Notes under the pieces: model-generated
Databases searched by the model: none
Seen by the model: only the letters and a program-made list of their open reading frames with translations
What the model was told of the DNA's origin: nothing
DNA from: Catellatospora sp. KI3
GTDB lineage: Bacteria > Actinomycetota > Actinomycetes > Mycobacteriales > Micromonosporaceae
NCBI RefSeq assembly: GCF_029948125.1
Contig: NZ_JASAMB010000011.1
Location: 62,001 to 126,000 of the forward strand
DNA: 64,000 nt
Direction: 5' to 3'
Made by a program: the position numbers and the translations under genes
In this document: piece after piece, positions 1 through 45,029 of the stretch
Layout: every line of letters begins with the position of its first letter
How positions within the stretch are numbered: the first letter of the stretch is position 1

Positions 1-957
1 CAGGTCGCTCTTGATGTGCAGCTCCGCGCCCAGGTCGAAGGGCAGCAGCTCGGGCCGCACCTTGTTCACGACCTCGGCGTCCTCGTAGAAGATCTTCAAG
101 GTGCGCTGCACGGCGTTCTTGTCGGCCCACTTGCCGGTGAAGAAGGTGCGCAGCGCCACCCACTTGACCAGGGTGGTCGTCTCGTCGATCGGGATGTTCG
201 TGTCGTAGATGATCAGCTCGCCGATCGGCAGCCGCACGTGCAGCTTGATCATGTTCGGCAGCATCCAGCCCGCCGAGGTGCGCACCGGCGGCCGGTTGTT
301 CAGGTCGCCCTTGTTCCGGTTGAGCATCGACCAGATGCCCTTGGGGCGCGGCGGGAACAGGTCGACGGTGGCGAACGCCGACCACTCGTCCGGCACCTCC
401 AGCTCGTACTCCTGCACCTCCGGGCGCTCCGGGTTGCCGAACGCGCCCGCGTGCACGAACGGGGCGTGCGCGATGTCGCAGCCGTTCTCCAGGATCCGCT
501 CGTAGTTGGAGTGCCACAGGAACTCGCCGGTCACCGCCCGGAAGCGGCCGCCGTTCTCCTTGAGGTCGTCGAACTCCGGCCACACCGGCAGCGGCGGGCG
601 CTCGGCCTCGGGCAGGTCGCCGAGGAACACCCACACGAAGCCGTACTTCTCCTGCACCGGGTACGAGTCGACGCGCGCCTTCTTCGGGATGGCGCGCCCC
701 GGCAGGTTCGCCGGGATCTTGGTGCACTGCCCGTCCGCGTCGTACTCCCAGCCGTGGTACGGGCAGACGATGCAGCCGTCCTTGGTCCAGCCGCCCGACA
801 GCGCCGCACCCCGGTGCACGCACAGGTCCGACAGCGCCACCGGGCGGCCCTTCGGGGTGCGGTACAGCGCCAGGTGCTGGCCCAGCACGGTCACCCGCAT
901 CGGCTTGGTGGTGACCCGGTCGGCGAACTCGACCGCGTACCAGAAGTTCTTCAGCAT
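1..957 (-). CDS. Rieske [2Fe-2S] aromatic ring-hydroxylating/PAO-type oxygenase, partial (C-terminus beyond window)
   Basis: Oxygenase component of a Rieske non-haem iron system. 319 residues are present and the C-terminus lies off the window. The Rieske ligands are C46/H48 and C65/H68 (CVH...CPYH). The mononuclear iron motif is N158-x2-D161-x2-H164-x4-H169, the arrangement of the PAO/VanA/KshA group. The ATG at 957 has a GGAGG six bases upstream. It is the last visible gene of the leftward operon from 4307 and starts two bases after the alpha/beta hydrolase stop. Sharing an operon with an RCCR homologue recalls plant pheophorbide a oxygenase, also a Rieske enzyme that acts just before RCCR. 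That substrate is inference; an aromatic, steroid or heterocycle oxygenase is the alternative. Electrons must come from a reductase not seen here. Confidence 0.9.
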   Translation of the reverse strand, partial: MLKNFWYAVEFADRVTTKPMRVTVLGQHLALYRTPKGRPVALSDLCVHRGAALSGGWTKDGCIVCPYHGWEYDADGQCTKIPANLPGRAIPKKARVDSYPVQEKYGFVWVFLGDLPEAERPPLPVWPEFDDLKENGGRFRAVTGEFLWHSNYERILENGCDIAHAPFVHAGAFGNPERPEVQEYELEVPDEWSAFATVDLFPPRPKGIWSMLNRNKGDLNNRPPVRTSAGWMLPNMIKLHVRLPIGELIIYDTNIPIDETTTLVKWVALRTFFTGKWADKNAVQRTLKIFYEDAEVVNKVRPELLPFDLGAELHIKSDL

Positions 958-959
958 CT

Positions 960-1922
960 CTACCTCCGCTGGATCGATGCGACGCCGTGGTGGGCGGTGA
1001 GCTTGTCCCACTCGGTGAACGACGCCGGGTCACCGCTCAGGTGCATCCGGCAGAAGACGGCCAGCAGGTCGGCGAGCAGCGCCCGGTGCGCGGCCGGGTC
1101 GCCGTCGGGGGCCTGGTCCAGGAACGCCCGCGCGGCGGTGTGGTCGACCGGGTCCACGATCGCGAAGTGGTTGGCCCCGGCCAGGCGGATCAGCGCGTTG
1201 GCGCCGTCGCGGTCGGGCAGCGCCTCGTCGAACGTGCGCGTGATCGGGTCGCGCCGGGCGGCCGCGTCCTCGCCGTACCGGTCGGCGGAGCCGTTGATGA
1301 CCCCGTCGTTGGTGCCGCCGACCAGCAGCACCGGGCAGTCCGCCTGCGCGGGCAGCACCGTACCGGCCGGCCAGCCGAGCATCGTGGCGACCATGTTGTG
1401 CGCACCGTACGTCGCGACCGCCTTGACCTCCGGCACGAAGCTCGCCGACTGCAGCGCGACCGTGCCGCCCGCCGAGTGGCCGATCAGGGCCACCCGGTCC
1501 AGGTCCAGCAGCCCGGCCACCGGGCCGGTCATCGACGCCAGCGCGTCGAGCACCGGCCGCAGCGACGGGCAGGTCGGCCGCTTGCCGTAGCCGTCGGGCC
1601 GGGCCGCGTCCAGGTCCACGCCCGGTGTGATGCCGTGCAGGCCCCCGAACAGGGTGCCGACCCAGTCGTAGGTGACCGCGACGATGCCGCGCTCGGCCAG
1701 CCGGGTGGCCAGCCAGCGGTACGCCTCCTGCCCGACGTTCACGCCGGACACGATCACCGCCACCGGGAACGGCGCCCCGGCCGGGTCGGCGGCCATCACG
1801 CCCGACAGCCGCTCCCGGTCGCTGCCGTCCGGCGCGGCCGGGTAGTAGACGCGCAGGTGGGCCGTGTCGAACGGGGCCTCGTGGCCGGGGATCGTCGCGG
1901 CCCACCACACCGAGCGGATCAT
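960..1922 (-). CDS. alpha/beta hydrolase, chlorophyllase/PAF-acetylhydrolase-like, cytoplasmic
   Basis: A 320-residue serine hydrolase. The nucleophile elbow is GHSAGG with S150; the likely acid is D206 (GGTNDG) and the likely base H252 (GANHF). No signal peptide is seen. The N-terminal layout (a VIVSG oxyanion region, then ERGIVAVTYDW) resembles dienelactone hydrolases and plant chlorophyllases, where a similar HGF...ASHGFIVVAPQ segment precedes the serine. The ATG at 1922 overlaps the RCCR-like stop as ATGA, so the two are translationally coupled. In this operon an ester-cleaving role on a tetrapyrrole side chain is plausible but unproven. Family is secure, substrate is not. Confidence 0.85.
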   Translation of the reverse strand: MIRSVWWAATIPGHEAPFDTAHLRVYYPAAPDGSDRERLSGVMAADPAGAPFPVAVIVSGVNVGQEAYRWLATRLAERGIVAVTYDWVGTLFGGLHGITPGVDLDAARPDGYGKRPTCPSLRPVLDALASMTGPVAGLLDLDRVALIGHSAGGTVALQSASFVPEVKAVATYGAHNMVATMLGWPAGTVLPAQADCPVLLVGGTNDGVINGSADRYGEDAAARRDPITRTFDEALPDRDGANALIRLAGANHFAIVDPVDHTAARAFLDQAPDGDPAAHRALLADLLAVFCRMHLSGDPASFTEWDKLTAHHGVASIQRR

Positions 1923-2722
1923 CGCGGCCGCTCCAGTTCCCGGTCCCCGCCCCACAGGCCGCGCACCAGGCGGTCGGTGGTCTCCTGGCCGAAGAAGCGC
2001 ACGCCCATCACGTTGGCCGGGTCGCGCTCGGCGATGTTGCGCCGCATCCGCAGGTCGGTCTCGGCGAGCGCGGCGCGCTCGGACTCCGGCACCGGCGGCG
2101 CGTTGTCGACCCAGCCCAGCCAGCGGTCCACGTGCTCGTGGGTCAGCTTGCGGACGACGTCGATGTTGCGCTCGCTGCGCCCGAACGAGTAGCAGTACGC
2201 CGTCGGGCTGAGGCTGGCCCGGATGAAGCCCGCCCGCGAGACGAAGTACTCGAACTCGGGGTCCTGCCGGTGGGCCAGCCAGTCCGCGTCCAGCGGCGCG
2301 TAGTACTCGTCGTAGTACTCGCCGTCCTCGATCAGGTTCACCCGGGGCACGGAGTCGAGGTAGAACCAGCCTTCGGGCCATACCAGCAGGGCCAGGCCCA
2401 GGTGGGGCACCTTGACCTGCGGGCCGAGCCAGACGGTCAGGTGCAGGTTGGCGAAGCTCGCGCTGGGGTTGCCCAGCCACGAGTGCACCATCCAGTCGAC
2501 CTCGGGGCCGCTGTAGGCGGCCAGCGAGCCGCCGGGGCCGTCGGGATAGGTCCCGTACGACTCCAGGGCCAGCGTCGACGGGTCGCGCTTCAGCTCGAAC
2601 CGGGCGTCGATCTTCGCCTTGAGCTCGGCGAGCAGCTGCTGCCACTGGTGGAACGTCTCGTGGACGTCGACGACGGGGGAGTTGTCGACCATGTCCTCGA
2701 CGTGGCGGAGGGTCTCGGCCAC
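1919..2722 (-). CDS. red chlorophyll catabolite reductase (RCCR) family protein
   Basis: A 267-residue homologue of plant RCCR, the ferredoxin-dependent bilin-reductase-fold enzyme that reduces red chlorophyll catabolite. From memory of Arabidopsis ACD2 I can align three blocks: residues 76-130 (WMVHSWL, then a stretch ending in YLDSVPR, compare LDLPPR); 166-175 (FIRASLSPTA against FVRSAFSPTA); and 215-258 (ER...DLRMRRNI, then VRFFGQETTDRLV against PRMFGEEVSSRVV). The plant catalytic Glu appears to be replaced, near A111, so the chemistry may differ. GTG start at 2722 with AGGTAGG upstream, four bases after the nitrilase gene; it is coupled to the hydrolase downstream. Family assignment is by eye. 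Confidence 0.8.
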   Translation of the reverse strand: MAETLRHVEDMVDNSPVVDVHETFHQWQQLLAELKAKIDARFELKRDPSTLALESYGTYPDGPGGSLAAYSGPEVDWMVHSWLGNPSASFANLHLTVWLGPQVKVPHLGLALLVWPEGWFYLDSVPRVNLIEDGEYYDEYYAPLDADWLAHRQDPEFEYFVSRAGFIRASLSPTAYCYSFGRSERNIDVVRKLTHEHVDRWLGWVDNAPPVPESERAALAETDLRMRRNIAERDPANVMGVRFFGQETTDRLVRGLWGGDRELERPR

Positions 2723-2726
2723 CGGC

Positions 2727-4307
2727 CTACCTTTCTGTTAGTGCTTGGAGCAGCCGCCACGGGCGGCCGTCGACGAGATCGGTGTTGCGCGAGACGAGCC
2801 GGTTGGCGGCCTGCGCGGGAGCCACCTCGGCCCGGCCGGACGGCTGCCCGGCGGGGACGGTGGTGACCACGGGGTGGCTGATCCGGCCGGTGAACGGCCC
2901 CTGCCAGTTGGTCCACAGCGTGAAGTCGGGCGACATCGCGAAGACCGCGCTGTCCTGGTCCAGCGGTGCGGCGGCGATGACGTTGAGCCGGTTCTCGGCC
3001 GCCCGCTCGGGCAGGCCCAGGCTGAGCTCCCAGCTCTCGGCCGCGGTGAACGGCACCGCGACCACGTCGGCGTCGGCCAGCGCGGCCAGCCGGAACACCT
3101 CGGGGTAGAACGAGTCGGCCCCGGCGACCAGCGCGAGGCGCCCCCAGGGCAGGTCCACCATGAGCGGGCCCTCGGTGTCGGCGTCCTCGCCGTGCAGCGG
3201 CTGCTGCGCGGCGACCGGCCCGGCCGCGTTCACCAGCACCGTCGACCCGTCCGCGGCGCGGGTCACCGCGTGGGCGGCGGTGCCGTCCAGGGCGGCGGCC
3301 AGCAGCTGCGGGTCGGCGTCGGCGACCACGACCAGCTGCGCACCGCCGGCCGCGGCCAGGGCGGTCTCGCGGGACACGGTCGCGGCGTCGCCGCGCACCA
3401 CCGCGACCGGCAGCGTGGCCGCGCCCGCGGGGCGCAGCCGGCCGGTCGGCGGGTACGCGATCGGGGCGTACAGCTCGGGGCGGCGGCTGGCCAGGATGTC
3501 GGTCCCGTCCGGACGGCGCTTGTCGTCGGCCAGGTCCGGGTCGATGTCGGCGATCACGACGGCCTCGCCGGTGCGCGGCCCGCGCGCCACCACCGTGCCG
3601 TCCGGGGCGACGATCTGGCTCTCCCCGGCCCCGTGCAGCCACTGCGCGGGCACGCCCAGCGCGGCGCTCAGCCGCGGCAGGTGCTCCTCGGGCAGCAGCG
3701 GGCCGATCTTGTTCGCGGCGACGACCCACACCTTGTTCTCGGCGGCGCGCACCGGGATGTGCAGGCTCGCCTCGTCGGTGGCGAACGAGTTGAGGCTGTT
3801 GAGCAGCACCTGCGCGCCGCGCAGGGCCAGGCCCCGGGCCACCTCGTTGAGCACGCCCTCCATGCAGGCGTACATGCCCAGCCGCCCCAGCGGGGTGTCG
3901 ATGATCGGGCCGACCTCGGTGGCCGTATCCAGGTGGTCGTTCTCGGCACCCATCAGGGTCTGCTTGTCGCACTGGCCGAGCAGTCCGCCGTCGGGGCCGA
4001 ACAGGAAGTTGGTGCCGCCGGTGCGGCCGTCGGCGTGGGCGTGCGTGACGTTTATCTTCACGTGTACGCCGTGCTGCCGGGCCCGGTCGGCGACCGCGGT
4101 CAGGAACGGGTCGCCGGGCCGGGTGGCGAGGCGGTGCGCCTGCGCGCGGTCGGCGTAGTAGGAAAGGTGGTTGCAGAACTCGGGCAGGACGATCAGTTGC
4201 GCACCCTGCGCGGCCGCGTCGTCGATCAGGCGCAGACAGGCGGCCAGGTTGGCCTCGACGTCCTGGCCTGCGGCGAGCTGCACCGCGGCGACCCGTACTG
4301 GAGCCAT
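2727..4307 (-). CDS. tandem nitrilase-superfamily (carbon-nitrogen hydrolase) protein, second domain degenerate
   Basis: A 526-residue protein with two carbon-nitrogen hydrolase domains. The first (about 1-270) has the full catalytic triad E43 (VLPEF), K115 (QCDKQT) and C148 (YACMEG), so it should hydrolyse an amide, nitrile or carbamoyl bond. The second (about 300-520) keeps the fold pattern, but the nucleophile position reads GADSFYPE with no Cys, so it is probably inactive and structural. The ATG at 4307 has GGAG upstream and follows an IclR-type operator. It is the first gene of the operon running nitrilase, RCCR-like, hydrolase, Rieske oxygenase. An amide-trimming role on a nitrogenous catabolite is inferred. 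Confidence 0.85.
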   Translation of the reverse strand: MAPVRVAAVQLAAGQDVEANLAACLRLIDDAAAQGAQLIVLPEFCNHLSYYADRAQAHRLATRPGDPFLTAVADRARQHGVHVKINVTHAHADGRTGGTNFLFGPDGGLLGQCDKQTLMGAENDHLDTATEVGPIIDTPLGRLGMYACMEGVLNEVARGLALRGAQVLLNSLNSFATDEASLHIPVRAAENKVWVVAANKIGPLLPEEHLPRLSAALGVPAQWLHGAGESQIVAPDGTVVARGPRTGEAVVIADIDPDLADDKRRPDGTDILASRRPELYAPIAYPPTGRLRPAGAATLPVAVVRGDAATVSRETALAAAGGAQLVVVADADPQLLAAALDGTAAHAVTRAADGSTVLVNAAGPVAAQQPLHGEDADTEGPLMVDLPWGRLALVAGADSFYPEVFRLAALADADVVAVPFTAAESWELSLGLPERAAENRLNVIAAAPLDQDSAVFAMSPDFTLWTNWQGPFTGRISHPVVTTVPAGQPSGRAEVAPAQAANRLVSRNTDLVDGRPWRLLQALTER

Positions 4308-4397: not shown

Positions 4398-4679
4398 ATG
4401 CTGACCCACGTGGTGCTGATGACGTTCACCGACGCAGCCGATGCTGCCAAGGCCAAGGATCTTTTGGAAGGCCTGGTGGGCGCGGTTCCCGAGATTTCCT
4501 CACTGACCGTGCACCTCGACGAGCTGCACACCGCGGTCTCGGCGCACCTGTGCATGGTCAGCACCCATGCCGACGCCGCCGGGCTGGCCGGATACCAGGC
4601 GCACCCGGCGCACCTGGAGCTGGCGCAGTGGCTGCGCCCGCGCCTGGCCGCGCGCACGGTGGTCGACTACACCAGCTGA
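4398..4679 (+). CDS. Dabb (stress-responsive A/B barrel, ferredoxin-like) domain protein
   Basis: A 93-residue protein of the Dabb family: N-terminal LTHVVLMTF strand, a central LxVHLDEL strand, and a C-terminal HPAHLELAQWL helix followed by VVDYTS. Members are small dimeric barrels, some of them cyclases or decarboxylases acting on aromatic or polyketide-like substrates. The ATG at 4398 is preceded five bases upstream by GGAGG; a GTG at 4395 is also in frame. It is divergent from the nitrilase/RCCR operon and shares operator A, so it is probably co-induced. Substrate unknown. Confidence 0.8.
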   Translation: MLTHVVLMTFTDAADAAKAKDLLEGLVGAVPEISSLTVHLDELHTAVSAHLCMVSTHADAAGLAGYQAHPAHLELAQWLRPRLAARTVVDYTS

Positions 4680-4735: not shown

Positions 4736-6049
4736 TCAGGGACGCGGCGGGTACGGGCGACCGTAGGGCGACCGCGACGGCCGCACGGTCGGCGACGCCG
4801 ACGGGCTGCGCGAAGGCGACATGCTCGGCGACGGGCTGGTGGAAGGCGACGCGCTCGGCGACGGACTGGTCGAGGGCGACGCGCTCGGCGACGGGCTGGT
4901 CGAGGGCGAGGCACTGGGCGACGGGCTCACCGAGGTCGACGGGCTGACCGACGGGGTCGGCGAGGTCGCCACGCAGTTCAGCGTAGCGGTGAACGGGGCG
5001 TAGTGGACCTCGCCGCCGTTGGCGTTCGGACCGCCCATGGTGATGCTCTCGGTGATGACCTGGCCCTCGATGTTGTTCGGGGACAGGTCGATCAGGTCGG
5101 CGTTGGGCGCGTAGAGAGTGCCCTCCAGGGTGGCCGCGGTCGACGGCATGGTGATCGACGAGGCCGTGGGGAAGTTCCACAGGATGAACGGCGCCTGGCC
5201 GATGCCGATGCCCGCCTGGTTCGGCACGTCGAAGACGTAGGTGTTGTCCGCCGAGGTGTCCACGTTGACCAGCAGCGGCTGGGTGGCCGTCGGGCTGTTG
5301 TTGAACGTCAGCGAGACGAGGTTGTCCAGCTCCACCCCGGTCAGGTTGAGCACGTTCGTGGTGTTCGGGGCGAGGGTGATGTAGGCCTGGGTGAGCGGCG
5401 CGATCGGCCGCGACAGCGGCACGCCGTTGGCGTTGGTCAGGATGACGTTGTTGGTGCACCCCGCCAGCGCGGTCGAGCTGTTGCGGAAGTCGGTGAAGGC
5501 GGCGGCGAAGTCGATGACCGACTGGAGCACCGAGGTGACCGGCTGGGTCAGCCGCAGCTCGACCCGCGGCGTGCCCTCGTAGGGGGTGTTCACGGGCACG
5601 ATGTGGGTGTTGCCGGGGGCGTTGTTGGAGTCGACGTTGAGGACCTGGGAGCCGGTGACGTCGCCGAGCTTGGCGTAGGCGTTGTTGTTGTTCACCGCCA
5701 GGATCGCGCCGGGTGCGCTGGTGAGCCAGTTGATGGCCCCGCCGATGACCAGCGCGCTGGGGTGCGTACCGTCGCCCGGGGCGATGAAGGTGCCCGGACT
5801 GCTGCCCGCGACCTGGAACGGTCCGCCGATGCGCAGGTTGCCGCCCAGGGCCAGCGGGCCCTCGATCTCGTTGCTGGTGAGGTCGGCGTTCTCGTCGACG
5901 AACACGTTGAAGCCGAGGGCCGCGGCGGTCGGGTTGGTGGGGCTGGCCAGCGCCGCCCCGCCTGGGCCGAGCATGACGACCGCCGCCATGGTGCTGACCC
6001 CGATGGAGACTGATGCGGCAATCATGCCGCGAAGTACTGGTTTCCGCAT
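4736..6049 (-). CDS. secreted choice-of-anchor A family protein with Ser/Pro-rich repeat tail
   Basis: 437 residues. A Sec-type signal (about 1-37, ending ALAS) is followed by a choice-of-anchor A beta-helical domain beginning near GFNVFVDENADL and containing GGNLRIGG, ...AINWL and LEGTLYAPNADL motifs, through about residue 365. The last 70 residues are low complexity, with near-perfect SPSPSASPST repeats, then a basic Arg/Pro-rich end. No LPXTG motif or C-terminal membrane helix is visible, so it may be released or held non-covalently in the wall. ATG at 6049. It does not obviously belong to the surrounding catabolic genes and has no GAAAC operator. Confidence 0.8.
   Translation of the reverse strand: MRKPVLRGMIAASVSIGVSTMAAVVMLGPGGAALASPTNPTAAALGFNVFVDENADLTSNEIEGPLALGGNLRIGGPFQVAGSSPGTFIAPGDGTHPSALVIGGAINWLTSAPGAILAVNNNNAYAKLGDVTGSQVLNVDSNNAPGNTHIVPVNTPYEGTPRVELRLTQPVTSVLQSVIDFAAAFTDFRNSSTALAGCTNNVILTNANGVPLSRPIAPLTQAYITLAPNTTNVLNLTGVELDNLVSLTFNNSPTATQPLLVNVDTSADNTYVFDVPNQAGIGIGQAPFILWNFPTASSITMPSTAATLEGTLYAPNADLIDLSPNNIEGQVITESITMGGPNANGGEVHYAPFTATLNCVATSPTPSVSPSTSVSPSPSASPSTSPSPSASPSTSPSPSASPSTSPSPSMSPSRSPSASPTVRPSRSPYGRPYPPRP
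4775..4945 (-). repeat. in-frame Ser/Pro repeat tract (S-P-S-P-S-A-S-P-S-T type)
   Basis: Degenerate tandem repeats of about 36 bp encoding Ser-Pro-Ser-Ala units in the tail of the choice-of-anchor A protein. Such tracts commonly vary in copy number by slippage and act as wall-spanning linkers. Confidence 0.8.
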
Positions 6050-6155: not shown

Positions 6156-7598
6156 TCACGCGGTCGGGTATGCCGTCGCGCTCGCGCCCTGCCCGCCCGG
6201 CCGGAACGCCGCCGGCGCGTGCACCGAGCACAGCTGGGCGTACTCGGCGATGCCGGCCTCGCCGTACTCGCGGCCGTGGCCGGAGCGCTTCACCCCGCCG
6301 AACGGCGCCCGCAGCGCCATGCCGGTGCGGTTGTGCGTGTTCACGAAGACGAACCCGGCCTCGAGCCGTTTCGCCACGCGGAACGCCCGCTCCTCGTCCG
6401 CCGACCATACCGAGGCGCCCAGCCCCAGCTCGTCGGCGTTGGCGCGGGCGACCAGGTCGTCCTCACCGTCGTGCACCAGCAGCGGCACCGTCGGCCCGAA
6501 CTGCTCGGACACCACGACCGGATCGTCGTCGCCCACCCCGACCAGCAGCGTCGGCGCCACGAAGTGGCCGCCCGAAAGCTCCGTGCCCGGATGCACCCGG
6601 CCCAGCGCGAGCGCTGTCCCGCCCCGGGCCACGGCCCCGTCCACCAGCGCGGTCACCCGGGCGGCGGCCTCGGCGGTGATCACCGGACCCATGCTGACCC
6701 CCTCGGCCAGCGGATCGCCCAGGCACAGCACCTCCTCGGCGGCGCGCAGGTACGCGTCCACGAACTCGTCGTACCGCGCGCGCGGCACGTACAGCCGCTT
6801 GGCGGCCATGCACACCTGCCCGCTGGTGGCGAACGAGGCCATGACCAGGCGCCGCATCGGTTCCGGCGACAGGTCCGCGTCGTCGAGCAGCAGCACCGGA
6901 TCGTTGCCGCCCAGCTCCAGCACGGTCGGGGTGGTGCCCGCCGCCGCCGCGACCGCCCGCGCGGTCTGCTCGCCGCCGGTGAACGCCACCTTGCGCACCA
7001 GCGGGTGCCCGACCAGGGCCGCGCCCGCCGCCGCGTCGCCGTGCACGACGTGAAGCACGTCGGTGGGCAGCGCGCCCGCCAGCAGCCGTACCACCCGGTC
7101 GACGGCCAGCGGTGCCAGCGGCGACGGCTTCACCACGACGGTGTTGCCCGCCGCCAGCGCCGGCGCGATCTTCAGCAGCGACAGGATGATCGGGGCGTTC
7201 CACGGGGTGATCGCGGCGACCACGCCGTACGGGCGGCGGGTCAGCAGCAGCCGGCCCGCCGCGTCGTCGGTCTCGGTGTCGGCGAGCACCGCCGGGGCCC
7301 GGTCGGCGACCCAGCGCAGGTACGTCAGCGCGAACCCGAGCTCGCCCCGGCAGTCGCCCCGCACCTTGCCCGACTCGCGCGCCAGCAGCTCCGCGAGCGT
7401 GTCCAGCTGCGGTTCGACCGCCTCGGCGGCGGTACGCAGCAGCGCCGCCCGTTCGAGTGGACCGGTGCCAGCCCAGCCGTGTCGGGCGGCGTCGGCGGCC
7501 CCTACCACCGCGTCGACCTGCTCCGCCCCACTGACCGGCACCGACCCGACCAGCTCCCGCACCCTGGCCGGGTTGTACCGGCTGACCCGCTCGCTCAT
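6156..7598 (-). CDS. NAD(P)-dependent aldehyde dehydrogenase
   Basis: 480 residues, full length for the ALDH superfamily. It oxidises an aldehyde to the acid. Visible are the cofactor region around TPWNAP (131-136), VVKPSP (155-160), FTGG (206-209), the general base E228 (LELGGN) and the nucleophile C263 (SGQVCMA). The ATG at 7598 has GGGGAGG just upstream and is preferred to an upstream in-frame start. It lies 145 bp downstream of the FAD-monooxygenase gene on the same strand, the gap being filled by a palindromic repeat, so it may have its own promoter. Likely part of the catabolic set; substrate unknown. Confidence 0.9.
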   Translation of the reverse strand: MSERVSRYNPARVRELVGSVPVSGAEQVDAVVGAADAARHGWAGTGPLERAALLRTAAEAVEPQLDTLAELLARESGKVRGDCRGELGFALTYLRWVADRAPAVLADTETDDAAGRLLLTRRPYGVVAAITPWNAPIILSLLKIAPALAAGNTVVVKPSPLAPLAVDRVVRLLAGALPTDVLHVVHGDAAAGAALVGHPLVRKVAFTGGEQTARAVAAAAGTTPTVLELGGNDPVLLLDDADLSPEPMRRLVMASFATSGQVCMAAKRLYVPRARYDEFVDAYLRAAEEVLCLGDPLAEGVSMGPVITAEAAARVTALVDGAVARGGTALALGRVHPGTELSGGHFVAPTLLVGVGDDDPVVVSEQFGPTVPLLVHDGEDDLVARANADELGLGASVWSADEERAFRVAKRLEAGFVFVNTHNRTGMALRAPFGGVKRSGHGREYGEAGIAEYAQLCSVHAPAAFRPGGQGASATAYPTA

Positions 7599-7644
7599 CC
7601 CGCCCTCCCCGTCCGCCACGCGCGCCGCGCCCCGTCAAGATCGC

Positions 7645-7743: not shown

Positions 7744-8898
7744 TCATGGGGTCACCGGGCGGAGGGACTCGATCATGCAGGCGCGCAGCAGGTAGGCACG
7801 GGTGCGGGCGGGGTCGGCGGCGGTGGCGCGGAGCTGGTCCAGGTGGGCGGCGCGGGCGGCCGGGTCGGTGGCGCTGAGGCGCTCGTAGTTGCGGTGCGAC
7901 ACGGCCTGGGTGAACTCCAGCGCGACACGTCGCCGCCGGTCGGCCGCCTGCGCGGTGGCGGTGTCAGGATCGCCGGCGGCCAGGGCGTCGGCGTACGCGA
8001 TCGCGTCGTGGATGCCGGAGTTCATGCCGAGCCCGCCGAGCGGGTTGTTGACGTGCGCGGCGTCCCCGGCCAGCAGCACCCGCCCCACCCGGAACGACGC
8101 GGCGACCCGCTGGTGCACCCGGTAGATGCTGGCGTGCGCCACCTGCCAGGGGCGGCCCGGGTCGTGGATCTGCCGCAGGCGGCCGTCCAGCCGGGCCAGC
8201 TCGGCCTCGTCGGGGGAGTCGTCCGGGGTCGGCAGCAGCACCCGCCAGTGGTCGGGCGTACGCAGCAGCACCGACCAGTCGACCGGGTCGAACACGTAGT
8301 TGACCGCCGCCAGCCCGTCCAGCCAGCCGGTCAGCTCCTCCGAAGTGGACGCCACCAGGAACCGCTCCGGGTAGGTGATGCCCTCGAAGGGCGTCTGGAG
8401 CGCGCGCCGCACCGCCGAGTGCGCCCCGTCGGCGGCGACCAGCCAGTCACCGCGTACGGCGGAGCCGTCGGCGACGTGCACGCCCACCCCGGTCTCGTCG
8501 CTGCTCGCGCCGGTGACCCGGCTGTCGAACCGGATCTGGACCCCGCGCCGGGCCAGGTGCTCGCGCAGGATCGGGGTCAGCTTCGACTGCTCCAGCTGCA
8601 CCCGGTACGGGTAGGCCGTGTCCTGTGCCAGGACGGCCAGGTTCAGGGTCGCGATGTGCCCGGCGGCGCGGTCGCGGTAGGCGAACGTCGGCGCGGTCAG
8701 CCCGCGTGCCAGCACCTCGTCGACCACGCCCAGCTCGGCCAGCATCTCCAGGGTGGGCGGGTGGAACGTGGAGGCGCGCGACTCGGCGGCCAGGTCGGGC
8801 CCGGCCTCCAGGACGGTGACGTCCAGGCCGTGCCGGGACAGGGCCAGGGCGGCGGTCAGCCCGACCGGCCCGGCACCGGCGACGATCACGCGGGTCAT
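7744..8898 (-). CDS. FAD-dependent aromatic monooxygenase (PHBH/UbiH-like)
   Basis: 384 residues. A class A flavoprotein hydroxylase with an N-terminal Rossmann GAGPVG (8-13), the central WLVAADGAHSAVR (DG) motif and the C-terminal VLLAGDAAHVNNPLGGLGMNSGI-type (GD) FAD motif. Such enzymes use NAD(P)H and O2 to hydroxylate or oxidatively cleave activated rings. The ATG at 8898 overlaps the upstream lyase stop as ATGA. It is the fourth gene of the coupled leftward operon from 13504. Ring opening of a pyrrole- or maleimide-like intermediate is one possible role; substrate unknown. Confidence 0.9.
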   Translation of the reverse strand: MTRVIVAGAGPVGLTAALALSRHGLDVTVLEAGPDLAAESRASTFHPPTLEMLAELGVVDEVLARGLTAPTFAYRDRAAGHIATLNLAVLAQDTAYPYRVQLEQSKLTPILREHLARRGVQIRFDSRVTGASSDETGVGVHVADGSAVRGDWLVAADGAHSAVRRALQTPFEGITYPERFLVASTSEELTGWLDGLAAVNYVFDPVDWSVLLRTPDHWRVLLPTPDDSPDEAELARLDGRLRQIHDPGRPWQVAHASIYRVHQRVAASFRVGRVLLAGDAAHVNNPLGGLGMNSGIHDAIAYADALAAGDPDTATAQAADRRRRVALEFTQAVSHRNYERLSATDPAARAAHLDQLRATAADPARTRAYLLRACMIESLRPVTP

Positions 8899-9748
8899 GC
8901 TGCATACCTCGCATCCAGTTCGAGGGCTTCGTCCTGTCCGACCAGCTTGGTGAAGTCGGCCCACGCCATCCGGTCGACGCCGTCGGCGCGGCCGTGCGCG
9001 CCGATGGCGGCGTAGGCGCGGGCGGCGGCGTCCAGCGCGGCGAGCAGCGGCGCGACCGGGTGCAGCACCAGCCGCACCCCGACGGCGGCCAGCTCGTCGT
9101 CGCCGGGCCAGCCGCTCGTGGATCCGGCCTCGGAACGGTTGACCACCATGGGGACGCCCGGCAGGGCCGCGTGCGCGCGGGCCAGTTCGTCTAGGTCGGT
9201 GACGCCCTCCAGGAAGACGGCGTCGGCTCCGGCGGCGGCGTAGCGGGCCGCGCGGTCGACCGCGTCATCCAGGCCGGTCACCGTGTACGCGTCGGTGCGC
9301 GCCACCACGACGATGCCGCCGCCCTCGGCCGCGACGGCGCGTACCTTGCGGGCGGCGGTGTCGGCGGGGACCAGTTCCTTGCCCGCGAGGTGGCCGCAGC
9401 GCTTCGGCTGGAGCTGGTCCTCCAGGTGCAGCCCGGCGACCCCGGCGGCGGTGTAGGCGCGGGCGGTCCACACCGCCTGCAGCGCGTCGCCGTAGCCGGT
9501 GTCGGCGTCGGCCAGCAGCGGTGCCCCGCGCAGCGCCGGGACCAGGCGCGCGGCCCGTGCGGCCAGGTGCGTGCCGTGGACGTAGCCGAGGTCGGGCAGG
9601 CCCAGGTCCAGGGCGGCGCAGGCCGCCCCGGACAGGTGCGCGGCCCGGTGGCCGGCCCGCACGGCCAGGGCGGCGGTGGGGGCGTCGTATACGCCGGGCA
9701 GGTGCGTGACCTGCCCGGCGGCGAGCAGGGCCCGCAGCGCGGCGGCGG

Positions 9749-9752
<4 letters not shown>
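8895..9752 (-). CDS. isocitrate lyase/PEP mutase superfamily lyase (methylisocitrate/dimethylmalate lyase-like)
   Basis: 285 residues. A C-C bond lyase of the PEP-mutase/isocitrate-lyase superfamily: metal motif DADTGYG (82-88), then EDQ and the lyase loop PKRCGHLAGKELV with C119 and H121. The KRCGH signature separates lyases from phosphonate mutases. Methylisocitrate, dimethylmalate and oxaloacetate are known substrates in this group. GTG start at 9752, overlapping the upstream aldehyde dehydrogenase stop as GTGA. A 2,3-disubstituted malate, as would form by hydrating a dimethylmaleate-type acid, would fit the pathway proposed here; that is inference. Confidence 0.85.
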
Positions 9753-11223
<1,471 letters not shown>

Positions 11224-11227
<4 letters not shown>

Positions 11228-12510
11228 TTGGGCACGCTCGCGAACAGCTCGTTGGACCGGTCGGCGGTGACCATCGAGGCCGCCTCCAGCCGCCCGCGCT
11301 CCGGCGGGAACGTCATGACCAGGCCCATGGCCAGGTCGCGCAGGGCCCGGCCCATGGTGCCGTGCAGGGTCGCCCCGGAGGTGCCCGACGCCTTGAACGC
11401 GCCGACCGCCACCGCGAACGCGGCCTCGCAGATCGACCCCTTGGCCAGCCGCCACTGCCGGTAGACGTCGGACTTGCTCGCCAGCGGGGGCTCGGAGGTC
11501 TCCAGCAGCAGCTGGCGGCGCAGCCACAGGTACGCCGTCTCCAGGTTCTCGGTCATGTCACCGATGATCACCTGGTGCATCGGGGACTCGGCGATGGGGC
11601 GGCCGGTGTCGGCGAACGTCTTGGCGGTCAGCCGGGACAGGGTCTCGTCGTAGACGCCCTGGGCGCAGCCGACGTACACGGCGGTGATGGCCAGCTGGTT
11701 GCCGACGAAGCTGCCCCGGCTGCACTGCAGCATCTTCACGAACGCGCCCGGCACGGTCAGCGCCTCGGTCGCGGGCACCCACACGTCGGTGAGCACGATG
11801 CCGTGGTTGGCCGAGCCGCGCATGCCCAGCCCGTCCCAGGACGGGCGCGACGCCACGCCCTCAGCCGTGCGCGGCACCAGGAACAGGGCCAGCCCGGCGG
11901 CCGTGTCGGTGCCGTCCACCCGCGCGGTGACCAGGTACGTGTCCGCGACGCCGGTGGCGCAGCCGAACGACTTCTCACCGCTGATCAGCCAGCCGTCGAC
12001 GCCGTCGCGCTGGGCGGGCCGGGCGGTGGTGGAGATCGCGATGTTGGCGCTGGCGCTCTTGACCGACTCGCTGGCGAAGTTGGCCAGCCAGGTGCCGCCG
12101 GCCATGCGGCGCAGCACCAGCTCGGCGAAGGCGCGCACGGTCGGCACGTCGGCCTCGTCGAACAGGCCCGCCTCGACCGCCTCCAGCGGCAGCAGGCCGC
12201 GCGAGGCGCTGGTGTTGTGGAAGAAGAACGCCAGCGCGGTCGACGGGCAGGCGGTGCCCATGGCGAAGGTGGCCGCGGCCAGGTCGCGCAGGCCGCCGCC
12301 GAGGCCGCCGTACTCCGTGGGCACGACCAGGCCGAGCAGGCCCGCCTCGCGCAGCAGGTCCACGTGCCCGGCGGGGAACTCCCCGGCCGCGTCGGCCTTG
12401 GCGGCCGCGGCGCGCAGTGCGGGCAGCACCGCCTCCACCCGCTGGGCGCGGTCGCGCTCGGCCTCGGTCATGTCGTCGACGAGGCGTTCGCCGGTGAGCG
12501 GGTCAGCCAT
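11224..12510 (-). CDS. acyl-CoA dehydrogenase-fold flavoprotein (dehydrogenase or two-component monooxygenase)
   Basis: 428 residues with the acyl-CoA dehydrogenase fold. The N-terminal helical domain contains LREAGLLGLVVPTEYGGLGG; the middle beta domain has GWLISGEKSFGCATG and LFLVPR; the C-terminal helices follow. Two roles fit. It may dehydrogenate an acyl-CoA, or, because a flavin reductase gene lies 22 bp upstream in the same operon, it may be a reduced-flavin-dependent monooxygenase of the HsaA/DszC type, which shares this fold. The usual catalytic Glu cannot be placed with certainty. ATG at 12510 with AAGGGAGA upstream. Confidence 0.8.
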
Positions 12511-12532: not shown

Positions 12533-13504
12533 TCAGGCCGGTTCGGCGCAGGCCACGCCGAGTTGGCGGGCCAGCAGCAGCAGGTCGTCGGCGGGCAGGC
12601 CGCCGGAGGCCGGATCGCGTACGGCGTCGAAGCGGCGTACGCCGCTCTTCATCGCCACCAGCGCGTTGACCAGTCCCAGTCCGTGGTGGGCGCGCAGCCG
12701 TACGTGCAGGGCGGCCGGGCGCACCCGCACGACCGCGTCCTGCAGCACCCGGCGCACCTGCAGCGGCGAGGCGGCCGCGTCCTCGGCGCAGCCGACCGCC
12801 ACATCGGGCAGCCCGGCCAGCGCGTCGAGGGTGGCCAGCACCACGGCCTCCCGGTCGGGGGCGAAGGCGTCGGCGACGTAGGCGCGCACCGGCACGGCGG
12901 CGGACAGGTCCCGCACGGCGGCCAGGTCGCCCGGGTCGCGGACGATCACCTGCGCCCCGATGCCGTCGGCGCCGTCCAGGACGGTGATGGTGATCTCGTC
13001 GGGCAGCGGGTCGGCCAGCTGGCCCCAGCTGCGCGAGTGGAACAGCAGCGGGGCGGTGACCCGGTCGACGGCGGCCTCGCGCACCCGGCCCACGAAGATG
13101 GTGTGGTCGCCGCCGGGGTAGGCGTGCTCGACGGTGCAGTCGAGCCGGCCGGTGGCGTGGGCGAGCATCGGGGAGCCGGTCGGGCCGGTGACCCACTCGG
13201 CTCCGGCGAAGCGGTCGGCCAGCCCGGGGACCTGTCCGGCGAAGCGGCGGCCGATCTCGGCCTGGTCCTTGCCCAGGAAGCTGAGCGCGAAGACGCCCGA
13301 TGATGCGATCATGGCCCGGGTGGGCAGGTGGTTGCCCAGGCAGACGGAGACCAGTGGCGGATCGAGGCTGACCGAGGAGAATGAGCTCGCGGTCATGCCG
13401 TGCGGCCGCAGCGATCCGTCGGCGTCCGCGGTCACGGTGGTCACGATGGCCACGCCGCTCGGCCACTGGCTGAGCACGGAACGCAGCTGCGCACTGTCCA
13501 CCAC
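12533..13504 (-). CDS. flavin reductase fused to degenerate HMG-CoA lyase-like (DRE-TIM) domain
   Basis: 323 residues. Residues 1-160 are a flavin reductase (HpaC-like FMN-binding split barrel): SGVAIVTT, PHGMTASSFSSVSLDPPLVSVCLG and the GDHTIFVGRV strand. Residues 165-323 match the C-terminal half of an HMG-CoA-lyase barrel, by comparison with the intact paralogue at 36694-37587 (the CAEDA...LQVRRVL and LRAHHGLGLVNALVAMKSGVRRFDA-type segments). The HxH metal motif is lost and the glycine-rich GGCPF loop is absent. GTG start at 13504. First gene of the leftward operon and divergent from the IclR gene. A reductase feeding the ACAD-like or FAD partner is likely; the tail is probably structural or regulatory. 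Confidence 0.75.
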   Translation of the reverse strand: MVDSAQLRSVLSQWPSGVAIVTTVTADADGSLRPHGMTASSFSSVSLDPPLVSVCLGNHLPTRAMIASSGVFALSFLGKDQAEIGRRFAGQVPGLADRFAGAEWVTGPTGSPMLAHATGRLDCTVEHAYPGGDHTIFVGRVREAAVDRVTAPLLFHSRSWGQLADPLPDEITITVLDGADGIGAQVIVRDPGDLAAVRDLSAAVPVRAYVADAFAPDREAVVLATLDALAGLPDVAVGCAEDAAASPLQVRRVLQDAVVRVRPAALHVRLRAHHGLGLVNALVAMKSGVRRFDAVRDPASGGLPADDLLLLARQLGVACAEPA

Positions 13505-13651: not shown

Positions 13652-14464
13652 GTGTCGACCAGCGCCGCAGCGAAGGCGAATCACGCCACCGACGACGACA
13701 GCCAGTCACGCTCCATCGCCGCCGTCGAGCGGGCCATGGACGTGCTGCTGTACTTCGGCCGCAGCGGCCAACCCGACCTCGGCGTGACCGAGATCGCGAC
13801 CGCGCTGAACCTGACCAAGGCGGCGGTGCACCGCATCCTTACCGCGCTGCGCAGCCGCGACCTCATCACCGTCGACCCGGTCACCCGCCGGTACGCCCTC
13901 GGCCACGCCGCCGTGGCGCTGGGCCGCGCCTACCTCGCCCGCACCGACCTGCGCGCGATGGCCGCACCTGAGCTGCGGCAGCTGGCCGAGCAGACCGGCG
14001 AGACGGCCACGCTGTCGCTGCGCCGCGGCGACACCCGCCTCTACGTCGACCAGGTCGTGCCCGATCAGGAGCTGCGGATGGAGGTCACCCTCGGCATCCC
14101 GTACCCGCTGCACGCGGGCGGCTCGTCCAAGGCGTTCCTGGCCTTCCTGCCCGAGGTCGAGATCGACTCCTACCTGGACCGGCACCCGCTGCAGCAGCTG
14201 ACCGACAAGACCCTCACCGAGCCGGCCAAGCTGCGCAAGGAGCTGACCGCGATCCGCAAGCGCGGCTACGCCACCTCGCTGGGTGAGCGCCAGGCCGGGG
14301 CGGCCTCGATCGCGGCGCCGATCTTCGACCACGACGGCCACGTGGTGGCGGTGCTGAGCGTCGCCGGGCCGTCGGCCCGGTTCAAGCCCGAGCAGGGCGA
14401 GACGGTCCAGTCGCTGCTGGACGCCGCCGGGCGGATCTCGGCGCAGCTGGGCTACGCGGGCTGA
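13652..14464 (+). CDS. IclR family transcriptional regulator
   Basis: 270 residues. A winged helix-turn-helix spans about 25-85 (SIAAVERAMDVL, then DLGVTEIATALNLTKAAVHRIL with the recognition helix). The IclR effector domain spans about 95-268, with MAAPELRQLAEQTGETATLS and the ligand loop near LHAGGSSKAFLAFLP. GTG at 13652 with GGAGGG four bases upstream; a TAGACT -10-like box is at 13616-13621. It is divergent from the flavoenzyme operon. The GAAAC-N3-GTTTC repeats at seven local promoters have the form IclR proteins bind, so I propose this protein as their common regulator, with a pathway intermediate as effector. Confidence 0.9.
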   Translation: MSTSAAAKANHATDDDSQSRSIAAVERAMDVLLYFGRSGQPDLGVTEIATALNLTKAAVHRILTALRSRDLITVDPVTRRYALGHAAVALGRAYLARTDLRAMAAPELRQLAEQTGETATLSLRRGDTRLYVDQVVPDQELRMEVTLGIPYPLHAGGSSKAFLAFLPEVEIDSYLDRHPLQQLTDKTLTEPAKLRKELTAIRKRGYATSLGERQAGAASIAAPIFDHDGHVVAVLSVAGPSARFKPEQGETVQSLLDAAGRISAQLGYAG

Positions 14465-14471
14465 GCCTGAC

Positions 14472-15185
14472 TCAGCGCGTGCGGTGGCGCGCGGTGGTGC
14501 GCTCCGGCATGCCCCAGGCGGGCTGGTCGCCCTGGTGCGCGGCCGGGAAGTCGCCGCCACCGCGGCGCACCGCCCGGAAGGTGAGCAGGCCCGCCACGAA
14601 GAAGATCAGCTGGGCCATGGTGTTCACGCCCTGCTGCACCCACTGGAACGCCAGTGCGTCGCTGGCCGGGTGGTTGCGCAGCGGCACCAGTGCCAGCACC
14701 GCCAGCACGCTGATCGGGAACAGCGCGGCCGCCAGCGCCTCGCCGTTGCGCCAGGCCCAGACCGCGCCGACGACGCTGATCCAGATGACGAACGCGGTGG
14801 CCGCGATGAACGCGGGCTGCACCGACTGCTGCTTGACCGCCAGCCCGGCGGCGGCCAGCCCGGCGACCGCCAGCGGCCACCAGGACCAGCGCAGCGCCCG
14901 GTGCAGCGAGATCGCCAGCAGCACCCCGCCCGCGGCCAGCAGCGGGAACAGCAGGTCGGCCAGGACCGGGATGTCGATCGAGTAGCCGGCGTGCAGCAGC
15001 TTCCAGGTGGACTTGGCCAGGCCGCCCGCGCCCATCAGCACCGCCCCGATCCGCCCCAGCGTCGACGGGGCGACGAAGAGGTAGCCGAGGAAGGCCAGCA
15101 GGGTGGGGACGAAGTCCTCCACTGCCAGGGCCATGCTCAGGTCGGGGGTTTCTGCGGCGAGGCTCGCCAGGCCATCCACGAACAT
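14472..15185 (-). CDS. integral membrane protein of unknown function
   Basis: 237 residues from the ATG at 15185, with about six or seven hydrophobic helices (for example TLLAFLGYLFVA, LLFPLLAAGGVLLAIS, WPLAVAGLAAAGLAV and FIAATAFVIWISVVGAVWAW) and a charged C-terminal tail. No family recognised. Convergent with the IclR gene, seven bases apart. No strong ribosome site precedes either candidate start (15185 or 15209). It lies inside the catabolic region but has no GAAAC operator of its own. Confidence 0.6.
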   Translation of the reverse strand: MFVDGLASLAAETPDLSMALAVEDFVPTLLAFLGYLFVAPSTLGRIGAVLMGAGGLAKSTWKLLHAGYSIDIPVLADLLFPLLAAGGVLLAISLHRALRWSWWPLAVAGLAAAGLAVKQQSVQPAFIAATAFVIWISVVGAVWAWRNGEALAAALFPISVLAVLALVPLRNHPASDALAFQWVQQGVNTMAQLIFFVAGLLTFRAVRRGGGDFPAAHQGDQPAWGMPERTTARHRTR

Positions 15186-15294
15186 GAGCGGGAGCGTAGC
15201 CCGGTCCATCGACGGCGTTCCAGTCGATCGGCCGGACAACTAGCTGCCGATCATCCACATTGGGTTGACCGGATGGGGGAGGGTCGATGCGGGT

Positions 15295-15337: not shown

Positions 15338-16273
15338 TCAGTGCACGGACTCGGCCGTGGCGTTGGCGTCGAAGAAGTCGCCCACGCTGTAGACCCAGGC
15401 CTGGCCGACAGGGTCGCCGAGCTGGGCCCGCAGCCACAGCGCGCTCCAGCGCGCCGCGGTCTCGACACTCGTCGCCTGGTCCAGGGTCTGCGCCGAGGTC
15501 TCGGGGCGGGCTCCGGCCGGGTTCTGCGCGTCGGTGATGCCGTAGTGGTTGGCGCCGAGCAGGCTCACGTACAGCTTCGGCGGGGTGGTGACGACCTGGT
15601 ACGTGGCGTACCCGTTGGCGGGGCTGCCGATGCCGTCGAGGCTGCCCTGCACCAGGGCGATCGGCACCGTGTTCGCGACCGGCGGGGTCTGCCCGGTCTG
15701 CGGCACGGTGTTGTTGGTGCCGTAGAACGCCGCCGCCTTGAGCTGCGGCGGCGTCGGCAGCGGCGCCATGCAGAACGGCGGGGTGCACAACCCGGTGCTC
15801 AGGTTGAGCCCCGCCGCGCCGCCGAACGAGTGCCCGAGCAGCACCAGGGTCTGCGGGTCGATCGCGCCGAGCAGCGGCGAGGCCGCGTTGGCGTTCTCGG
15901 CCGCGGCCCAGCCGACGGTCCAGGTGGCCTGGGCGCCGGTGGCGTACAGGCCGGGCTGGCCGAACAGCACCTGGTAGTGGTTCGGGACCACGACCACGAA
16001 GCCGTACGAGGCGACCTTGGTGGCGAAGCCGCGGTAGGCGGACTTGTCCACGTTGGCGCCCTGCAGCAGCAGCGCCACCGGCCACGGGCTGTGCGCGGAC
16101 CCGGTGACCGGGTGGTACACGTCAGCGGCGTCGCCGTTGACGCTGGTCGTGTAGCTGCTGACGGTCGAGTACGCCGCCTGGGCCGGGGCGGGGACCGCCA
16201 TGGCCGCCAGGGCCGCGGCGGCCGCGACCGCCGCGGCCCGCAGCAGTCCGCGGCGGTGGAGACGAGGTGTCAC
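15338..16273 (-). CDS. Tat-exported alpha/beta hydrolase, chlorophyllase/dienelactone-hydrolase-like
   Basis: 311 residues. The N-terminus carries a twin-arginine signal (HRRGLLRAAA, hydrophobic run, cleavage near AQAA at about 34). The mature enzyme has an oxyanion segment VALLLQGANVD, then ASYGFVVVVPNHY, the nucleophile elbow GHSFGG with S149, a later acid in GSLDG, and H in GANHYG. The HGF..ASxGFVVVxPN pattern is that of chlorophyllases and PET-hydrolase/dienelactone-hydrolase relatives. The GTG at 16273 is chosen because GGAGG stands five bases upstream and the operator at 16294-16310 would otherwise be inside the coding region. An extracellular ester-cleaving first step in the catabolic pathway is inferred. 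Confidence 0.8.
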   Translation of the reverse strand: MTPRLHRRGLLRAAAVAAAAALAAMAVPAPAQAAYSTVSSYTTSVNGDAADVYHPVTGSAHSPWPVALLLQGANVDKSAYRGFATKVASYGFVVVVPNHYQVLFGQPGLYATGAQATWTVGWAAAENANAASPLLGAIDPQTLVLLGHSFGGAAGLNLSTGLCTPPFCMAPLPTPPQLKAAAFYGTNNTVPQTGQTPPVANTVPIALVQGSLDGIGSPANGYATYQVVTTPPKLYVSLLGANHYGITDAQNPAGARPETSAQTLDQATSVETAARWSALWLRAQLGDPVGQAWVYSVGDFFDANATAESVH

Positions 16274-16293
16274 AGGAACCTCCGTTTCTCTCA

Positions 16294-16310
16294 GCGAAAC
16301 AACGTTTCGC
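16294..16310. promoter_or_regulatory. IclR-type operator, site B (perfect palindrome)
   Basis: GCGAAAC-AAC-GTTTCGC, a perfect 7-3-7 repeat, flanked by a second complementary pair, TCTCTCA (16287-16293) and TGAGAGA (16313-16319). It lies 21 bp upstream of the exported-hydrolase start and is the best copy in the window. Confidence 0.75.
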
Positions 16311-16355
16311 ATTGAGAGACATAGTGGAGTCCATAGACCGCCCTCGTCAACGCCG

Positions 16356-33165: not shown

Positions 33166-33199
33166 AGTGTGCGAAACGCAGCTCTGGGAGGTAATCGCC

Positions 33200-45027: not shown

Positions 45028-45029
45028 CC

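Follow-up and report, generated by a model that had tools for sequence, protein, structure and literature searches.

A nine-gene operon in Catellatospora sp. KI3 pairs two proteins of the RCCR/bilin-reductase fold with a Rieske oxygenase. Both are relatives of red chlorophyll catabolite reductase (RCCR), the enzyme with which plants bleach chlorophyll. We propose that the operon belongs to a catabolic cluster, made of linked blocks along roughly 45 kb, for the degradation of a tetrapyrrole that is linear or has been linearised, a reading to which we give a probability of about one half. The cluster probably enables some actinobacteria to use pigments derived from chlorophyll or haem as food by breaking them down. 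The fold is thereby extended to pairs of proteins, in bacteria that are not known to be photosynthetic, with one partner having consistently lost the strand acid. The accessible part of a review of phyllobilins names the fate of colourless chlorophyll catabolites as an open question (PMC4950323), and since the cluster is conserved in named, sequenced actinomycete strains, a microbial answer is directly testable.

Operon extent and gene content

What we observe directly is gene content, homology, active-site residues, conservation and co-occurrence, together with the model folds of two proteins, FDB2 and LIP. The window, meaning the whole 64,000-nucleotide stretch analysed, contains all four genes of the initial annotation at the positions it gave, on the minus strand (Table 1). 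Its description of these genes as one operon holds as far as tight linkage is concerned, with a 4-nt overlap between the RCCR-like stop and the hydrolase start, but the operon is longer than described. It comprises nine genes, five of them entirely beyond the window start, as called by a simple GC3 heuristic that leaves some starts uncertain and may miss genes. The window edge cuts the Rieske gene, which in full (L002:13755-14957) encodes 400 aa.

Table 1. Genes of the operon and of the window. Positions are those of the window, except that L002 positions lie beyond it, in the 3' part of the operon; other L numbers denote loci with related genes. Counts out of 42 are blast hits to actinomycete loci, and paralogues may inflate those for the aldehyde dehydrogenase, hydrolase and membrane protein rows.
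Feature	Position	Strand	Basis or occurrence
MAI, Asp/Glu-racemase-superfamily enzyme	L002:9933-10676	-	
Membrane protein	L002:10673-11332	-	
SDR	L002:11329-12102	-	
LIP, double-calycin protein	L002:12099-13043	-	
FDB2, second RCCR-fold protein	L002:13036-13758	-	
Rieske oxygenase, window-truncated	1-957	-	Rieske and VanA_C domains
Alpha/beta hydrolase, PETase/dienelactone-hydrolase-like	960-1922	-	Pfam; Ser/Asp/His in 42/42
RCCR-like protein with Ala111 in place of the strand acid; Asp234 retained	1919-2722	-	PF06405, PDB RCCR, residues
Two-domain amidase of the nitrilase superfamily, apparently degenerate in the second domain	2727-4307	-	CN_hydrolase
Dabb (A/B barrel) protein, divergent	4398-4679	+	PF07876; 33/42 loci; Dabb gene also in L053
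Aldehyde dehydrogenase	6156-7619	-	39/42 loci (tblastn); L053
FAD monooxygenase (FAD_binding_3)	7744-8901	-	35/42 loci; L053, L055, L057
Methylisocitrate-lyase-like protein (PEP_mutase/ICL superfamily)	8895-9752	-	
Second aldehyde dehydrogenase	9749-11227	-	L053, L055
Acyl-CoA-dehydrogenase-fold flavoprotein, possibly HsaA-type monooxygenase	11224-12510	-	24/42 loci; L053, L055
Flavin reductase (HsaB/HpaC type)	12533-13504	-	
IclR-family regulator	13652-14464	+	IclR-type genes also in L047, L052
Membrane protein resembling that of the operon	14472-15239	-	By sequence; no Pfam match
Hydrolase, chlorophyllase family, probably secreted	15338-16312	-	PF07224; signal-like N terminus
CitE/RipC-like C-C lyase	18681-19523	+	PF03328; also L047, L048, L052
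PF04199 cyclase	31079-31834	-	93.1 bits; 53-55% identity to L047, L052, L071 members
Family III CoA-transferase 1	31924-33120	-	PF02515; L047, L052, L071 at 56-71%
Hydantoinase/allantoinase-type cyclic amidohydrolase	33167-34627	+	L052, L071
HMG-CoA-lyase-like protein	36694-37587	-	275.8 bits, subfamily cut-off 246
Family III CoA-transferase 2	37648-38841	+	PF02515; L048, L053, L055, L072, L015, L040 at 62-77%
Isochorismatase-family hydrolase	38841-39476	+	PF00857, 113.3 bits; 47-54% identity to L053, L055, L057, L072

A gene-neighbourhood survey by blast, as the initial annotation had suggested, recovered a nearly complete operon set in 42 further actinomycete loci. The RCCR-like, FDB2 and LIP genes occur in the identical 23 of 150 genomes from the family of the source strain, although these are not independent events, the genes being linked and the genomes related. 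The RCCR-like protein had no match on plasmids among 72,556 records.

Some of the window between 6 and 40 kb is related to the system to which the operon belongs. The cluster also occurs in rearranged form in another class, and the imide/amide hydrolases, CoA-transferases and lyases that it includes there have counterparts at 18-40 kb of the window. The hydantoinase-type gene shares a contig with the operon in 8 of 14 genomes, and the HMG-CoA-lyase-like protein recurs in four other loci (L048, L052, L053 and L055) and in 7 of the 42 actinomycete loci. The PF04199 cyclase appears to belong to an isatin-hydrolase/formamidase-like subfamily.

This gene content bears on the idea that the system is biosynthetic or protective and serves to produce or alter a pigment or signal of the bilin type instead of degrading one. 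Heterotrophs do have bilin-reductase clusters with bilin-binding globins, according to the accessible part of PMC10151467, and the genome encodes a haem oxygenase (171.7 bits). The latter lies on contig C12, not on the contig of the operon, and was matched in 3 of 14 controls too, so its presence says little. Neither a globin nor a haem oxygenase is among the cluster genes scanned, which instead include many catabolic-type hydrolases, aldehyde dehydrogenases, CoA-transferases and C-C lyases; we consider a biosynthetic or protective role improbable.

Two RCCR-fold proteins and their neighbours

The proposed homology to RCCR is confirmed by the PF06405 search that had been suggested for it: the RCCR-like protein scores 53.8 bits (E 2.1e-14; cut-off 24.9), placing it in the family by score. 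In the PDB it matches Arabidopsis RCCR, with E values of 2.5e-8 for the single sequence and 5.7e-13 for a 43-row profile, and its score against Fe_bilin_red (PF05996) is 19.3 bits, under the cut-off of 31. The two blocks singled out earlier, FIRASLSPTA and VRFFGQETTDRLV, are both present within the aligned RCCR region. Numbering through the alignment to the PDB protein (F218V entries), we take Glu154 and Asp291 to be the catalytic acids of Arabidopsis RCCR. All 47 aligned RCCR-like proteins have Asp in the Asp291 column and Ala in the Glu154 column, bearing out the suspected loss of the plant catalytic Glu; the pair of acids expected of an RCC reductase is thus incomplete.

The structure model of FDB2 (pLDDT 94.8) has the RCCR fold, with the alpha/beta/alpha sandwich of the bilin-reductase superfamily. 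As a single sequence it reaches 14.0 bits against PF06405, below the cut-off of 24.9, while its profile matches the RCCR-like family at 97.3%; against the Fe_bilin_red Pfam model there is no match at E 5. Both columns matching Asp99 and Asp219 of GtPEBB hold Asp in 47/47 FDB2 sequences, a pair reported as essential in the accessible part of PMC6755814.

LIP is modeled as a double calycin of the DUF3598 type and weakly resembles haem- and bilin-handling calycins; it has no Pfam match at E 5, in a profile set from which the DUF3598 model may be absent. Maleate cis-trans isomerases use two catalytic cysteines. MAI was rejected as a canonical member of that family, with Met at the first Cys site in 46/46 sequences; the second is Cys in 44/46 and Val in 2/46.

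The missing acid in all 47 RCCR-like proteins, together with downstream enzymes of generic ring-opening, amide and CoA types, would suit a catabolic cluster for another nitrogen heterocycle, such as a lactam- or imide-forming alkaloid, with both RCCR-fold proteins recruited to the new substrate. FDB2 retains both of its acids, however, LIP weakly resembles haem- and bilin-handling calycins, and, to our knowledge, all known enzymes of the RCCR/bilin-reductase fold act on tetrapyrroles. What is accessible of PMC13193486 agrees on this last point. We regard recruitment to another heterocycle as rather unlikely.

The oxygenase and plant chlorophyll breakdown

The Rieske protein has the features of a Rieske non-haem iron oxygenase: CxH/CxxH motifs and a 2-His-1-carboxylate-type site, with the C/H/C/H ligands and D161/H164/H169, seven residues in all, kept in 47/47 sequences. 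PF00355 and VanA_C both score above cut-off, the VanA_C catalytic domain with 98.5 bits. By sequence, the nearest solved relatives are SxtDIOX, SxtT and dicamba demethylase. The PaO domain (PF08417) is absent from this protein and was found nowhere in the genome, in a search whose control matched Synechococcus elongatus and Caulobacter. Assignment as a plant-type PAO was therefore rejected, given a VanA_C domain and no PaO domain.

The initial annotation also called the operon hydrolase chlorophyllase-like, which the scores do not confirm: it reaches 11.8 bits against PF07224 (cut-off 26), and Pfam places it with PETases and dienelactone hydrolases. The hydrolase at 15338-16312 does exceed that cut-off, with 34.2 bits; it is found in 20 of the 42 loci at a mean identity of 33%, a count that may merely mirror the operon hydrolase. 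In the nitrilase alignment of 48 rows, the first domain has Glu/Lys/Cys in 47 and a gap in the remaining one; close to the Cys site of the second domain, 46 rows have Gly and two are gapped.

The analogy with plant chlorophyll breakdown drawn at the outset survives in the RCCR homology, the operon linkage, the neighboring Rieske oxygenase and the lost catalytic acid, but the idea that the plant pathway is copied here is not supported. An outright bacterial PAO/phyllobilin pathway, in which the Rieske enzyme opens pheophorbide a and the RCCR-like protein reduces RCC, would account for the family match above cut-off, the adjoining Rieske gene and a chlorophyllase-family hydrolase in the region. 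VanA_C in place of PaO, Ala at the Glu154 position and an operon hydrolase below the chlorophyllase cut-off all speak against it. A search of the genome for an Mg-dechelatase (Staygreen) had no match, but its control matched nowhere either, so this negative carries no information. We see little chance that such a pathway operates here.

A proposed route and known systems

From these observations we infer the substrate, each reaction, the order of steps and the unity of the whole region as one pathway. Degradation of a tetrapyrrole could begin with removal of ester groups by the chlorophyllase-family and operon hydrolases. FDB2, with both catalytic Asp positions, would reduce the bilin, drawing electrons from a ferredoxin whose gene lies elsewhere. 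The RCCR-like protein, with its strand acid missing, would either pair with FDB2 or act as a further reductase with changed chemistry, and LIP would hold the pigment, which is hydrophobic. Oxygenation and cleavage into one-ring lactams or maleimide-type imides may then follow through the Rieske enzyme and the two flavin monooxygenases, with side products handled by the aldehyde dehydrogenases and SDR. Ring opening and ammonia release would fall to the cyclic amidohydrolase, cyclase, nitrilase and isochorismatase-type amidase, and branched C4 acids could reach central metabolites via the CoA-transferases and HMGL/CitE/methylisocitrate-type lyases.

More tentatively, we suggest that this may be an undescribed aerobic pathway by which bacteria mineralise linear tetrapyrroles, namely bilins that stem from chlorophyll or haem and perhaps the phyllobilins of plants. 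The pigment would be converted by the Rieske oxygenase together with an RCCR-fold reductase that works as two subunits or in two steps, and its one-ring fragments would reach central metabolism through a dedicated branch of imide/amide hydrolases and CoA lyases. As the initial annotation had supposed, we recognised no described pathway of this composition in the literature searched, mostly outside subscription journals.

The closest parallels are partial. The lumichrome/riboflavin cluster, as far as the accessible part of its description goes (PMC12746152), likewise represents actinobacterial heterocycle catabolism combining a Rieske oxygenase with amidases, which favors another heterocycle as substrate. 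That part of the source shows a different enzyme set and no RCCR-fold protein, and its P450, thiamin-dependent decarboxylase, xanthine oxidase and catechol dioxygenase were not identified among the genes scanned here; with enzymes that differ, the lumichrome pathway was rejected. Pre-PcyA clusters resemble ours in being conserved in bacteria that do not photosynthesise and in containing genes of the bilin-reductase fold, but they carry haem oxygenase, globin, V4R and Fe-S genes, and we identified none of these among the genes scanned (PMC10151467, accessible part). Neither "Rieske" nor "actino" turned up when that paper was searched for these terms.

At the level of single proteins, FDB2 differs from the ferredoxin-dependent bilin reductases GtPEBB, PebA and PcyA in that no haem oxygenase was identified adjoining it, and it is 15% identical to GtPEBB; LIP is 11% and 6% identical to the DUF3598 and BFA1 double calycins. 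Compared with plant RCCR (PF06405, Arabidopsis), which uses ferredoxin to reduce RCC to pFCC, the bacterial RCCR-like proteins carry Ala at the Glu154 position (47/47), and the operon, which has no PAO partner, encodes two paralogues.

Operon structure and conservation

The initial annotation proposed four genes at window 1-4307, a nitrilase-like amidase heading a chlorophyllase-like hydrolase, a Rieske oxygenase, and an RCCR homologue, and all four genes lie at the stated places on the minus strand. The window itself covers 62001-126000 of its contig. Gene reading of L002, the sequence across the window start (window position equals L002 position minus 14000), extends the operon beyond this edge. 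At the eight junctions, six overlaps of 4 to 8 nt and two gaps of 2 and 4 nt are seen, lengths that depend on the gene starts chosen here. A Ser/Pro-rich, probably secreted protein (window 4736-6049, minus strand), encoded between Dabb and an ALDH, has a match in just one of the 42 related loci.

Coordinates of operon and associated genes
Feature	Position	Strand	Remark
Rieske oxygenase	L002:13755-14957	-	operon gene
FDB2 (second RCCR-fold protein)	L002:13036-13758	-	operon gene
LIP (double-calycin protein)	L002:12099-13043	-	operon gene
SDR	L002:11329-12102	-	operon gene
Membrane protein	L002:10673-11332	-	operon gene
MAI (Asp/Glu-racemase superfamily)	L002:9933-10676	-	operon gene
Dabb gene	window 4398-4679	+	divergent, at operon head
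Hydantoinase/allantoinase-type enzyme	window 33167-34627		relatives in loci L052 and L071

One pattern scan of species genomes, which detects close relatives only, gave 42 further loci, from Catellatospora, Hamadaea, Actinoplanes relatives, Dactylosporangium, Actinomadura, Nonomuraea, Streptosporangium, Streptomyces, Nocardia, and others. By tblastn, the nitrilase, RCCR-like protein, Rieske oxygenase, FDB2, SDR, and MAI are each found in all 42, LIP in 41, the hydrolase in 40, the membrane protein and ALDH in 39 each, and Dabb in 33. Order and strand of eight operon genes (membrane protein excluded) are kept in 39 of the 42, the exceptions being L023, L026, and L044. Within the source's own family, RCCR-like, FDB2, and LIP each occur in the identical 23 of 150 genomes; across the phylum, PF06405, the RCCR profile, matches in 3/396.

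Active-site residues of the two RCCR-fold proteins

We jointly aligned 47 RCCR-like and 47 FDB2 proteins with Arabidopsis RCCR and the bilin reductase GtPEBB, in which Asp99 and Asp219 are essential (excerpt of PMC6755814). The Asp99/Glu154 column holds Ala in 47/47 RCCR-like proteins, whereas FDB2 has Asp in 47/47; thus, the RCCR-like protein lacks one catalytic acid and FDB2 is a paralogue with both. Asp occupies the Asp219/Asp291 column in all 94. All 94 also carry a His four residues ahead of the first column, a residue found in neither Arabidopsis RCCR nor GtPEBB. Loss of one acid would be compatible with the RCCR-like protein serving as a partner or having a changed chemistry. Phe218 of Arabidopsis RCCR has a stereochemical role; among the 47 RCCR-like proteins, 44 have Leu in its column (position taken from F218V entries) and 3 have Val.

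Linked blocks and versions in another class

We searched 296 genomes of the class of G252, a genome related to the source only as "same phylum" and hence outside its own class. PF06405 and LIP are found in the same 4 genomes, and FDB2 in these plus G403, where 12 kb around the hit, on a 15.3-kb contig, yielded no other query-set gene. L047, L048, and L052, loci of three of these 4 genomes, have RCCR-like, Rieske, FDB2, and LIP side by side in that order; in the fourth genome, G653, the first three adjoin, and LIP is on a different contig, close to its end. Relatives of window genes surround this core in rearranged order: a nitrilase in 4/4 and, in various subsets, CoA-transferase, CitE, MAI, FAD monooxygenase, an acyl-CoA-dehydrogenase-like protein, ALDHs, SDR, and IclR. 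A HyuA/HyuB hydantoinase/oxoprolinase pair (L047:4614-8347) adjoins the core and was not found in the other distant loci compared. Further genes accompany LIP at L052:1687-4596, possibly an array of calycins; one (2972-3922) is 25% identical to LIP, and two of those tested have no Pfam match. One cluster carries two MAI paralogues (L055:2919-3647 and 8910-9647; 52% and 73% identical to MAI of the source operon), and 52-53% identical forms adjoin CoA-transferase 2 relatives in L048, L053, and L055.

Genes of distant loci matched back to five genes at window 31-39 kb, for a cyclase, CoA-transferase 1, an HMG-CoA-lyase-like protein (HMGL), CoA-transferase 2, and an isochorismatase-type hydrolase; the hydantoinase/allantoinase-type enzyme, with its relatives in L052 and L071, belongs to this block too. 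In L015 and L040, HMGL and CoA-transferase 2 genes lie ≤8 kb from the RCCR-like gene. Among the 14 genomes checked out of the 42, the hydantoinase shares the operon's contig in 8, with roughly 9 to 40 kb between it and the RCCR-like gene, matches on other contigs in 5 (told apart by differing lengths or coordinates), and has no match in 1, so linkage is common, not universal. Seven linked copies are 70-95% identical, with a 500-base sample of each contig recovered in the operon locus; one, from Actinoplanes lutulentus, has an in-frame TAG. The eighth, from Nocardia, is 47% identical, and its contig agrees with the operon's by length alone. Dipeptide/oligopeptide-type ABC transporter genes nearby (window 43044-46016, plus strand) could encode an importer.

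Window 6-16 kb encodes ALDHs, a flavin monooxygenase, a methylisocitrate-lyase-like protein, an HsaA/HsaB-like pair, an IclR regulator, and a chlorophyllase-family hydrolase; CitE and a thiolase/ChsH2-like pair follow at 17-19.5 kb. This pair (17184-18676, plus strand), immediately 5' of the CitE-like lyase, was not found in the distant loci compared. Most genes scanned at 19.6-29.7 kb, among them those for a lectin domain, a CitMHS/ArsB transporter, a WD40/KAP NTPase, and HPF1, seem unrelated. The system is thus made up of several linked blocks and does not form a single continuous cluster. The 1285-aa protein at 23480-27337 (plus strand) joins WD40 repeats to a KAP-family NTPase domain.

Proposed function and known systems

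We give a probability of 0.5 to the cluster being tetrapyrrole-catabolic, and we infer every reaction. To our knowledge, all enzymes of the RCCR/bilin-reductase fold use tetrapyrroles; the fold also occurs in two chloroplast FtsHi-complex chains, the ligand of both being unknown. It is common to bilin reductases, RCCR, and coproporphyrinogen oxidase (excerpt of PMC13193486). The enzymes around the RCCR-fold pair are of catabolic-route types. A haem oxygenase is encoded elsewhere in the genome and could supply biliverdin. Pyrrole-ring lactams and imides would suit cyclic amidohydrolases, cyclases, and amidases, and branched C4 acids would suit CoA-transferases and citramalyl-CoA- or HMG-CoA-type lyases. 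Precedents exist in the degradation of nicotinate through maleamate, in that of cyclic imides by imidase and half-amidase, and in the oxidation of tetrapyrroles to maleimides.

RCCR homologues of Nostoc and Anabaena (part of PMC2716323) and heterotroph bilin-reductase clusters with globins (part of PMC10151467) are already published; we recognized no description of the present cluster in the literature searched, which omits most subscription journals. All the proteins are members of known superfamilies; what appears new is the pairing of RCCR-fold proteins in one system, along with the pathway context of that system. The fate of phyllobilins, a question posed in a review (excerpt of PMC4950323), would become testable through this cluster.
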